Virus record (IMG/VR): IMGVR_UViG_3300021964_000663 | Location: 1 to 21,348 of that record | Source: a virus | Strand: one strand, 5' to 3' | Length of the DNA: 21,348 bases | In this document: one piece after another, positions 2,968 to 5,653 of the stretch | How the letters are laid out: every line of letters begins with the position of its first letter | Position numbering within the stretch: the first letter of the stretch is position 1 | Program-made: the position numbers and the translations under genes | Notes under the pieces: generated by a model | Database searches by the model: none | Told to the model about the DNA's origin: nothing | What the model saw: only the letters and a program-made list of their open reading frames with translations

Positions 2968-3054
2968 ATGTTAGGGAACAGTATCTTTATTAACAAATTA
3001 TTAAAGAAAGGAATCCAAGTTTATGTGTATATAAATCCTCACTGTTCCCTAACA
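2968..3054 (+). ncRNA. Structured leader RNA or small RNA closed by a perfect 14-bp stem
   Basis: TGTTAGGGAACAGT (2969-2982) is perfectly complementary to ACTGTTCCCTAACA (3041-3054). The 58 nt between them fold into two hairpins: CTTTA-T-TAA / TTA-T-TAAAG with a CAAA tetraloop (2985-3006), and AGGA plus TTTAT paired with ATAAA plus TCCT around a GTGTAT loop (3009-3039, 7-nt bulge). The result is a three-way junction that would start at the predicted transcription start. The second hairpin hides an AAAGGA ribosome-site sequence. Pairing is read directly; existence of the RNA and any function are inferred. It could be a 5' leader controlling the gene at 3065, a stable 5' cap-like structure, or a free small RNA. 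Confidence 0.5.
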
Positions 3055-3078
3055 CAAAATAGTAATGAACAAATATAA
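2968..3078 (+). CDS. Possible 36-residue leaderless ORF overlapping the structured leader
   Basis: An ATG sits at the predicted transcription start (2968) of the promoter at 2933. The frame, beginning MLGNSIFINKLLKKG, runs to TAA 3076-3078 and overlaps the start of the next gene at 3065. If translated without a leader, ribosomes could reinitiate at 3065, which itself lacks a Shine-Dalgarno site. The frame may equally be accidental, since the same bases build a long RNA stem. Confidence 0.25.
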   Translation: MLGNSIFINKLLKKGIQVYVYINPHCSLTQNSNEQI

Positions 3079-3253
3079 AGTATATACTCATCTAGTCACT
3101 GTAAGACATTACAGTATTTTGGCAGATACACCTGACAATGCAAAGAATCTAGCCAAGAGTATAGTAAAGAAATTGTCAAGACAGAATCCTGTTATCATGT
3201 TTGAAAGGGATTATGTAAGAATAAAAAAAGTAGAAAGGATAGACAATGAATAA
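3065..3253 (+). CDS. Small YxVxxxxxxYxIxADT-type protein, 62 residues
   Basis: The protein opens with two predicted strands (YKVYTHLVTV and HYSILADT) followed by an Ala/Lys helix (DNAKNLAKSIVKKL) and a final basic strand. The ADT-x-x-x-A-x-x-x-A arrangement is shared with the protein at 3478-3669 and with many small phage and plasmid proteins of unknown role. No Shine-Dalgarno site is visible next to the ATG (CACAAAATAGTA precedes it), so translation probably depends on the structured leader or coupling to the upstream ORF. The stop overlaps the next ATG by 8 nt. Function unknown. Confidence 0.65.
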   Translation: MNKYKVYTHLVTVRHYSILADTPDNAKNLAKSIVKKLSRQNPVIMFERDYVRIKKVERIDNE

Positions 3254-3494
3254 AATAAGAATAGAATGTCAAGAATGTGAGGGCCTAGGCCGTATACCTG
3301 TATGCCCTGAGCCAAGGTATGATGAATGGGAAGATTGCCCTGTATGTGAAGGTCATGGCCATTGGCTTGAAGAGGAAGAAGTAGTAGAAAAAATGAGAGG
3401 CAGTTGTATTGTTGATGAAGAGATTGATACAATGTTTAATGATTATGAAGTAGAAAGATTAACTGAAAGGAAGAACAATGGATATTATGACTAA
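3246..3494 (+). CDS. DnaJ-like zinc-finger protein, 82 residues
   Basis: Two CxxCxGxG repeats, CQECEGLG near residue 8 and CPVCEGHG near residue 32, are the hallmark of DnaJ-type zinc modules, in which the four cysteines bind one zinc ion. The rest is acidic and helical, with no J-domain, so it is not a chaperone by itself. In this family the module binds proteins or nucleic acids. ATG 3246 lies inside the end of the upstream gene with GAAAGGA just before it. A similar CxxC pair is found inside the phage's DNA polymerase, which makes a replication-associated role conceivable but unproven. Confidence 0.75.
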   Translation: MNKIRIECQECEGLGRIPVCPEPRYDEWEDCPVCEGHGHWLEEEEVVEKMRGSCIVDEEIDTMFNDYEVERLTERKNNGYYD

Positions 3495-3707: not shown

Positions 3708-3766
3708 CCACATGTGGATGTTATCATACTTTTAATAATTTGTCAAGGATAAAATTTTACTTGACA
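3708..3766. promoter_or_regulatory. Palindrome and inverted repeat upstream of primase promoter
   Basis: CCACATGTGG (3708-3717) is a perfect 10-bp palindrome. TGTCAAG (3741-3747) is the inverse of CTTGACA (3760-3766), the latter containing the -35 box. Both are plausible protein-binding sites for controlling the primase promoter. Nothing else is seen in 3670-3760. Confidence 0.35.
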
Positions 3767-3788
3767 TTCAGAAAAAAAAGTGTATAGT
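3761..3788 (+). promoter_or_regulatory. Sigma-70 promoter of the primase gene
   Basis: TTGACA 3761-3766, 16-nt spacer ending in TG, TATAGT 3783-3788; an alternative perfect TATAAT lies at 3789-3794 but with 22-nt spacing. The predicted start near 3795 is only about 4 nt before the primase ATG, so the message would be leaderless. The ATTTTACTTGACATTC context matches the promoter at 2933. Confidence 0.7.
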
Positions 3789-3798
3789 TATAATACAA

Positions 3799-4596
3799 AT
3801 GGAATACAAATACCAACTAAATAAAATAAAAGAACTGAACATAGCTTCAGGACAACACTATCGTGGTGACTGTTTATTCTGTTTGAATCGTAATACATTA
3901 TCAGTTAGAAGTGAGAATGGAAGATTGTCTTGGAACTGTTTTCATGCTAACTGCGATGCTAAAGGCTCACTAAGTGTGAGTACTACCGTAGATGACTTAC
4001 AAAATTTCTTACACAGTAAGACTAAACCCTCCATTGAACAATTCTCTTTCACTGTTCCTAGGGAATTTGTAACCGTCTACGGTAATAATAAAGCAAGAGA
4101 GTATATTGATAAATATCAGCTAGAGAATACCGAGGCTAGACTGATGTATGATGTGAAACAAGATAGAATTGTGTTTCTAATTGAAGAAGAAGGCACTGTT
4201 GTGGGTGCAATCGGTAGAGCGTTGGCTGATGACACATTCCCTAAATGGTATAAGTATGGTACATCATCATTACCTTTCATGGTGGGTACAAATAAATATG
4301 TAGGCGTACTAGTAGAGGATTGTGTCTCAGCCTGTAAGGTAGCACTAGCGAATCTTACAGGGATAGCTATCATGGGTACACGATTACCTGATGAGTATAT
4401 AGTTCCCATTGCAGATAAAATTGATAGATGTTTTGTTTGTTTGGATAAAGACGCTACAGAAAAAAGTTTCAAAATAAGAGATACTCTATCCTATCACATT
4501 CCTAGTTATGTAGAAATGATAGATAAGGATTTGAAGTATTATAGTATTAATGAATTAAAAGAATGGGGGGAAAAAATATGCAAGAAGATTGGTTAG
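3799..4596 (+). CDS. DNA primase with zinc ribbon and TOPRIM domain
   Basis: Makes RNA primers for lagging-strand DNA synthesis at the phage fork. An N-terminal zinc ribbon is visible: Cys25 and Cys28 (CLFC), then Cys47 and Cys52, as in T7 gp4-type primases, where it reads the template trinucleotide. A linker (about 60-90) leads to a TOPRIM region with the conserved Glu at about 173 (VGVLVEDCVSACK) and the DxD pair at about 216/218 (CFVCLDKDAT), which bind magnesium. At 265 residues it is a primase alone; the helicase is encoded separately at 5654, unlike the fused T7 protein. No Shine-Dalgarno site precedes the ATG, and the promoter sits just upstream, pointing to leaderless translation. The zinc ribbon begins at residue 25, so a later start is excluded. 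Confidence 0.88.
   Translation: MEYKYQLNKIKELNIASGQHYRGDCLFCLNRNTLSVRSENGRLSWNCFHANCDAKGSLSVSTTVDDLQNFLHSKTKPSIEQFSFTVPREFVTVYGNNKAREYIDKYQLENTEARLMYDVKQDRIVFLIEEEGTVVGAIGRALADDTFPKWYKYGTSSLPFMVGTNKYVGVLVEDCVSACKVALANLTGIAIMGTRLPDEYIVPIADKIDRCFVCLDKDATEKSFKIRDTLSYHIPSYVEMIDKDLKYYSINELKEWGEKICKKIG
4007..4021 (+). repeat. Recurrent hairpin, copy 2 (inside primase)
   Basis: TCTTAC-ACA-GTAAGA, a 6-bp stem with ACA loop, in the linker region of the primase gene (encoding FLHSK). Identical core to the copies at 796 and 5625. Confidence 0.6.
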
Positions 4597-5409: not shown

Positions 5410-5624
5410 TGGAAAAATTTAATTACATGGTAGGTATAACTTTTATTTTATTTTTATTTATGATTACTTCTTGTTCATACACTGTAGAAAAGAATACTAA
5501 AAACGATATTGCTATTGAGCCTTTAGATTCTATTCAAAAAATAGATTGTGAAGCTGATAACATAAAGAAGTTAGACATAGCTAAATGTAAAATGGAGACA
5601 AGACTATTGGAGTTAAAGTATTAA
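5409..5624 (+). CDS. Small predicted lipoprotein, 71 residues
   Basis: GTG 5409 shares a base with the preceding stop; an ATG six codons later is an alternative start. The N-terminus has a hydrophobic helix (VGITFILFLFM) ending in ITSC, a good lipobox, so signal peptidase II should cleave before Cys at about residue 22 and leave a lipid-anchored protein. The mature part is a short polar domain with two further cysteines. Phage lipoproteins of this size include superinfection-exclusion proteins and outer spanins; an early/replication position fits exclusion better than lysis. No homolog recognised. Confidence 0.65.
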   Translation: MEKFNYMVGITFILFLFMITSCSYTVEKNTKNDIAIEPLDSIQKIDCEADNIKKLDIAKCKMETRLLELKY

Positions 5625-5641
5625 ATCTTACACAGTAAGAT
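5625..5641 (+). repeat. Recurrent hairpin, copy 3 (helicase leader)
   Basis: ATCTTAC-ACA-GTAAGAT, a perfect 7-bp stem with ACA loop, filling the gap between the lipoprotein stop and the helicase Shine-Dalgarno site (AGAAAGG at 5642). It could protect the message or affect ribosome access. Confidence 0.65.
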
Positions 5642-5653
5642 AGAAAGGTACAC

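Follow-up and report, generated by a model that had tools for sequence, protein, structure and literature searches.

A structured RNA with a covarying outer stem at the predicted transcription start of an HMO-2011-type phage operon

Background

Hairpins and ribosome-binding sites located at the 5' ends of mRNAs are known stabilisers (PMC3997798). This is the case for the 5' stem-loops of ompA and papA and for the B. subtilis aprE leader/STAB-SD, in which a stem at the extreme 5' end is combined with a leader ribosome site that does not necessarily start a gene (PMC3997798). The element described here would have the same layout, given its predicted +1, and it includes a ribosome-binding sequence in the leader (AAAGAAAGGA) that is invariant and the same as the Shine-Dalgarno (SD) sequences of the phage genes. 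It differs from ompA, papA, and aprE in that the SD sequence lies in a closed loop and is partly paired, an AUG is part of the stem, and hardly any variation is seen in the loop core.

A similar comparison can be made with put of phage HK022, a folded RNA of similar size that starts an early phage transcript (PMC9378689). Here too, the element is found just downstream of a promoter that, judged by gene order, would be early. However, put consists of two adjacent stem-loops, about 70 nt in all, whereas a single stem, 13-16 bp long among the copies, closes the whole of the present element around a junction or large loop, and there is no Rfam match. Furthermore, leaderless mRNAs are common in Caulobacter, for which 375 have been reported (PMC4117421). 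Leaderless alphaproteobacterial mRNAs carry their AUG at +1, as is predicted here for 9/9 copies, but such AUGs are usually unstructured (PMC4117421), whereas the one considered here is paired in a 14-bp stem. Lastly, translational riboswitches and ribosomal-protein leaders share with the element a structured leader with a sequestered SD sequence; unlike them, the element is without a known aptamer, an Rfam match, or a constant downstream gene.

Results

Genomic setting

The window, i.e. the whole stretch of 21,348 nucleotides that was analysed, carries on its + strand genes for an HNH/endonuclease VII-like protein, a primase, a DnaB-like helicase, a family A DNA polymerase, and a Cas4-type exonuclease; its long minus-strand genes are structural-looking. 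The DNA polymerase is nearest to that of the isolate Pelagibacter phage HTVC033P (52% identity), followed by those of the Roseobacter CRP phages and HMO-2011, and on this basis the window is assigned to an HMO-2011-type phage, the host of which is probably a marine alphaproteobacterium. No phage RNA polymerase was evident in the window. The element is situated between a divergent small minus-strand gene (2660-2821) and a + strand operon (genes at 3065, 3246, and 3478) that precedes the primase gene; the gene order suggests that this operon and its promoter are early. The features considered below are as follows.

2933-2961, + strand: promoter-like site TTGACA-N17-GAGAAT, with TATGA before the -10 hexamer (scan; aligned, and identically placed in all contigs with the element)
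2968-2970, + strand: predicted start of transcription at the A of an invariant AUG (+1 to +3), 7 nt after the -10 hexamer (ATG in 9/9 copies)
2968-3078, + strand: open frame of 36 codons from the +1 AUG, ending inside the next gene (frame 0 open in 9/9 copies, other frames closed)
2969-2982, + strand: 5' arm of outer stem P1, TGTTAGGGAACAGT (fold, inverted-repeat search, covariation)
2984-3007, + strand: possible inner hairpin P2, TCTTTA/TAAAGA in the window (minimum free energy fold of the window; no covariation, 85% of cells paired)
2987-2996, + strand: invariant block A, TTATTAACAA (100% mean pairwise identity, eight sequences)
3002-3030, + strand: near-invariant block B, around AAAGAAAGGAATCCAAGTTT(A/G)TGT (97% mean pairwise identity, eight sequences)
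3003-3012, + strand: invariant SD-like sequence AAAGAAAGGA, containing AGAAAGG (at 3005), the usual ribosome site of the phage
3009-3039, + strand: hairpin P3, AGGA (3009-3012) with TCCT (3036-3039), partly hiding the SD sequence (fold; pairing of GG with the tail kept in 7/7 types)
3023-3025, + strand: possible start of a mini-ORF, ATG in the window and GTG elsewhere, 10 nt past GAAAGGA (downstream frame not conserved)
3041-3054, + strand: 3' arm of P1, ACTGTTCCCTAACA (fold; compensatory double changes in 6/14 pairs)
3065-3253, + strand: first operon gene (MNKYKVYTHL...), of no known family, without SD sequence
3246-3494, + strand: second operon gene, a small zinc-finger-like protein (CxxCxGxG) conserved in relatives

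With respect to the neighbouring genes, the 3246-3494 protein showed weak similarity, under curated cut-offs, to the DnaJ central domain and to Anti-TRAP, and the minus-strand gene at 2660-2821 encodes a conserved protein of 52-57 amino acids (MNVFGITKKSISFF...DREWA) that was retrieved from about 50 viral loci and had no PHROG or Pfam match. Elsewhere in the window, a palindromic TCTTACACAGTAAGA-like repeat occurs in three copies (789-813, 4001-4025, and 5620-5644); two of the copies precede genes and the third lies within the primase gene. These repeats are possibly an operator or a weak terminator.

Promoter and predicted start

The second hexamer of the promoter at 2933 (GAGAAT) is preceded by TG, and the sequence TTGACA-N9-AAGTATGA is common to this promoter and to the sites at 822 (+ strand) and 3746 (minus strand). 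In every copy of the element, the A of the ATG sits 7 nt past the -10 hexamer, and the outer stem starts one or two bases 3' of the predicted +1 (at 2969 in the window, for a +1 at 2968), in agreement with the first-pass annotation, which had placed the stem within a base or two of the predicted start. Where the same promoters occur elsewhere, an ATG is located at about +1 or +2 (L003/L004 and L025/L026). Similarly, the primase ATG lies 7-10 nt past the -10 hexamer of a conserved TTGACA/TATA(G/C)T promoter in 15/15 sequences checked. Leaderless or near-leaderless starts hence seem to be usual at promoters in this region. In the stretch 3761-3799 of the window, and at the same place in 14 relatives, the primase gene is seen to start without an SD sequence and appears leaderless or nearly so. 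A further promoter-like site, TTGACA-N17-TAACAT, is found on the minus strand at 3746-3718, directed away from the primase promoter and conserved in the 15 sequences checked; it would yield a transcript running antisense to both the operon and the element, and no minus-strand gene was evident there.

The outer stem

The arms of P1 (2969-2982 and 3041-3054) form a perfect 14-bp inverted repeat around 58 nt, exactly as had been annotated; by a hand estimate, about 0.06 such repeats with such spacing would be expected in 21 kb of like composition. The RNA of 2968-3054 folds at -26.1 kcal/mol, compared with -11.4 +/- 2.65 for shuffled sequences (z = -5.55), and 0/200 shuffles folded as well. Compensatory changes, the check that the first-pass annotation had proposed, were present: in an alignment of eight sequences, double changes occurred in 6/14 pairs of the outer stem, 99% of the cells were paired, and none of 500 shuffles equalled this, slid controls being near zero. 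The double changes are distributed over the window (one pair), L008 (three pairs), and L016 (three pairs), one pair being common to L008 and L016. In addition, wherever a change on one side has kept a pair, the result is a G-U wobble when read on the + strand, whereas the opposite strand would have an A-C mismatch. This indicates that it is the + strand RNA that folds, although the argument involves three to four independent events and is of modest weight. The alignment thus indicates that P1 is real and selected for pairing rather than for its letters.

The interior

The inner hairpins of the three-way junction proposed earlier are weak: both are present in the minimum free energy fold of the window, but P2 never covaries, RNAalifold favours over it a helix joining block A to the 3' part of block B, and the interior alone was not more stable than shuffled sequence in any of the eight sequences (z from -0.5 to +1.7). 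This rival inner helix (2988-2996 with 3021-3029) fits 98% of the cells, with one broken pair in the window, and never covaries; no compensatory changes were found in it or in P2 in the eight-sequence alignment. The linkers and the tail beside blocks A and B have 41-52% mean pairwise identity, and the ATG 100%. By this comparison, constraint acts on pairing in P1 and on the letters themselves in the core.

The ribosome site in the loop

AGAAAGG occurs 11 times on the + strand of the window, mostly just ahead of gene starts. Its spacing to the ATG is mostly 6-9 in these phages, whereas the next start-like codon in the element is at 10. A mini-ORF from this internal GTG or ATG was considered and rejected, on account of both this spacing and a product that is not conserved. 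In 7/7 types, the tail, although otherwise variable, can pair with the GG of AAAGAAAGGA (probability 0.44-0.87). Summed over the types, this pairing amounts to 4.48; the corresponding sum is 1.62 +/- 0.75 when the tails are shuffled and 1.03 +/- 0.71 when they are random. The comparison takes the seven types as independent and is therefore overstated given their shared ancestry. P3 was assessed by retention of pairing, not by compensatory changes. The proposed hiding of the ribosome site by the second hairpin is thus supported, as a partial hiding. The last 25 nt before the gene at 3065 contain no SD sequence, in line with the first-pass annotation, in which AGGA belonged to the only ribosome-site-like sequence upstream of that gene.

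The +1 frame and the downstream genes

The frame from the +1 AUG stops at or just beyond the ATG of the next gene in every copy. The chance of an open +1 frame is p = 0.05-0.11 per copy, and these chances do not multiply, since the copies are related; for the tails alone, the product is about 0.0075 if independence is assumed. Peptide-level selection on this frame was not seen: most changes in the 5' arm are at codon position 1 or 2 and alter amino acids, and in L005/L006 the core is read in a different frame. The first operon gene is without an SD sequence in 5/7 types (one being present in L008 and L016) and varies among the carriers, being absent in L016 and extended in L008. This suggests that the function common to the carriers acts on the transcript, not on one gene.

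Distribution

Primase relatives provided 34 loci for comparison. The element was retrieved from the window and from eight other viral contigs (L002, L005, L006, L007, L008, L011, L015, and L016), the nine copies representing seven sequence types, the window included, each directly after the same promoter. It is precisely missing in the close relatives L003/L004, whose first gene is the same and has its ATG immediately after the promoter; in more distant relatives without the element, the start is either leaderless or preceded by a short leader with an SD sequence. On the primase tree, the distribution needs three changes, and the nesting of L003/L004 among the carriers, on a moderately supported branch, points to loss of the element.

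The Rfam 15 covariance models (4227 families) gave no match to the element, their one spurious hit (E = 0.77) lying elsewhere in the window, which accords with the first reading that no known RNA is resembled. A covariance model of the element found only the nine copies in the loci searched, and none in HTVC033P or HMO-2011. Exact-core scans of 2.9 million viral contigs revealed no further copies, nor did a loose pattern scan of the loci among the matches listed. Among isolated phages, the region had no DNA match at E 1e-5, the element only chance-level matches, and the leader peptide no match. The core 16-mer was found at 98 places in 84,980 genomes, and a model search of 80 of the 98 gave no convincing match. 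As the model search and the exact-core scans gave no further copies, the family looks confined to one phage lineage within the reach of an exact core, with divergent copies and metagenome records lying outside that reach. The element is a new RNA family of a general kind already known.

Two candidates outside the lineage were rejected. One (L163, 26.6 bits), picked by its exact 16-mer, is part of an RloB gene and was regarded as a chance match. The other is a group of loci (L370, L379, L411, L419, L373, L412, and L437; 25-28 bits) with a coding segment, SIFNDKMKAIQVCV, that is similar, in the same frame, to a part of the element and that we take to be a cobS-type gene segment of other phages. 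As an origin of the element, this group was judged a chance resemblance, although SIF...IQVCV shares the leader frame, because many places had been searched and the similarity of the flanks then stands at the 99.9% point of shuffles.

Discussion

The explanation ranked first, with a probability of roughly 45%, is that the element may be a cis-acting structured 5' leader of the early operon mRNA, namely a stabiliser or gated leader. The 5'-terminal stem would shield the triphosphate end from decay and would keep the +1 AUG paired, gating leaderless initiation, while the partly sequestered SD sequence in the loop may dock ribosomes with no normal gene being started. Stem and docking site would together keep the message stable and set the translation level of the SD-less downstream gene, which could be translated either through standby loading or through coupling to the open frame that overlaps its start. 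A terminal stem with a ribosome site is the layout of known 5' stabilisers (PMC3997798), which supports a stabilising role; similarly, a paired +1 AUG with a frame overlapping the next start suggests gating of leaderless translation. Counted in favour of the leader are also the covariation of the stem, its fixed place at the predicted +1, the invariant AAAGAAAGGA and its kept GG sequestration, the mostly SD-less first gene, the +1 frame open throughout, and the leaderless or near-leaderless messages that the same promoters otherwise give. Against it count that L003/L004 manage without the element, that coupling is not needed in L008 and L016, which have an SD sequence before the first gene, that the invariant AUCCAAGUUU...GUAUAU exceeds what a ribosome-docking site needs, that leaderless AUGs are normally unstructured (PMC4117421), and that peptide-level selection was not seen.

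Invariant loop blocks within a covarying stem also resemble a binding site, and with two mutually exclusive inner helices possible and SD sequestration retained, the element may instead be a translation switch, in which the stem and the SD sequence would be opened or closed when a protein or metabolite binds the invariant core, perhaps as autoregulation by an operon gene. This explanation was ranked second, yet is unlikely: no riboswitch or leader family matches (Rfam 15), and with the first gene missing in L016 and extended in L008, a fixed regulated target is lacking. More speculatively, the leaderless +1 AUG built into the stem base and the partly hidden ribosome site in the loop might set initiation in competition with stem closure, or the core might act on host RNA polymerase or ribosomes, in either case timing early expression. 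Ranked third, and rather improbable, is an antiterminator resembling HK022 put, in which the nascent RNA would bind host RNA polymerase and cause readthrough of terminators. The position just past a presumably early promoter, the fitting size (putL lies just downstream of PL and measures about 70 nt; PMC9378689), the independence of the downstream gene, and the invariant core agree with this, but put is a pair of adjacent stem-loops, whereas here a large loop is closed by a single long stem, and close relatives lose the element with their gene order unchanged.

Independence of the downstream gene, a long stem typical of stable RNAs, and an invariant, mostly unpaired core would likewise fit a trans-acting small RNA processed from the transcript, which might, for instance, sequester ribosomes or base-pair with mRNAs of the host. 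Since no terminator was found after the stem, the element is always joined to the operon, and the loci searched held no conserved complementary site, this possibility was placed fourth and is considered doubtful. A DNA-level element, such as a replication or packaging signal or a palindromic protein site, could be imagined from the perfect inverted repeat 0.8 kb ahead of the primase gene; it is made very improbable by wobbles that are all G-U on the + strand, by stem letters that are free to change, and by a location always at the predicted +1 of a promoter together with absence from close relatives. Equally hard to uphold is a small protein gene starting at the +1 AUG, with the stem as a secondary matter: its frame is open in 9/9 copies and most indels ahead of the core are multiples of three, but substitutions are not concentrated at third codon positions, the core of L005/L006 is in another frame, the C-terminal part shifts frame between types, and no protein match was obtained.

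Conclusions

HMO-2011-type phages infect abundant marine bacteria, and no papers on RNA regulation in these phages were found. An RNA that is backed by covariation, limited to one lineage, and located at a promoter start offers a testable handle on the control of early transcripts in HMO-2011-type phages. In addition, the element could serve to test the structural gating of leaderless messages.
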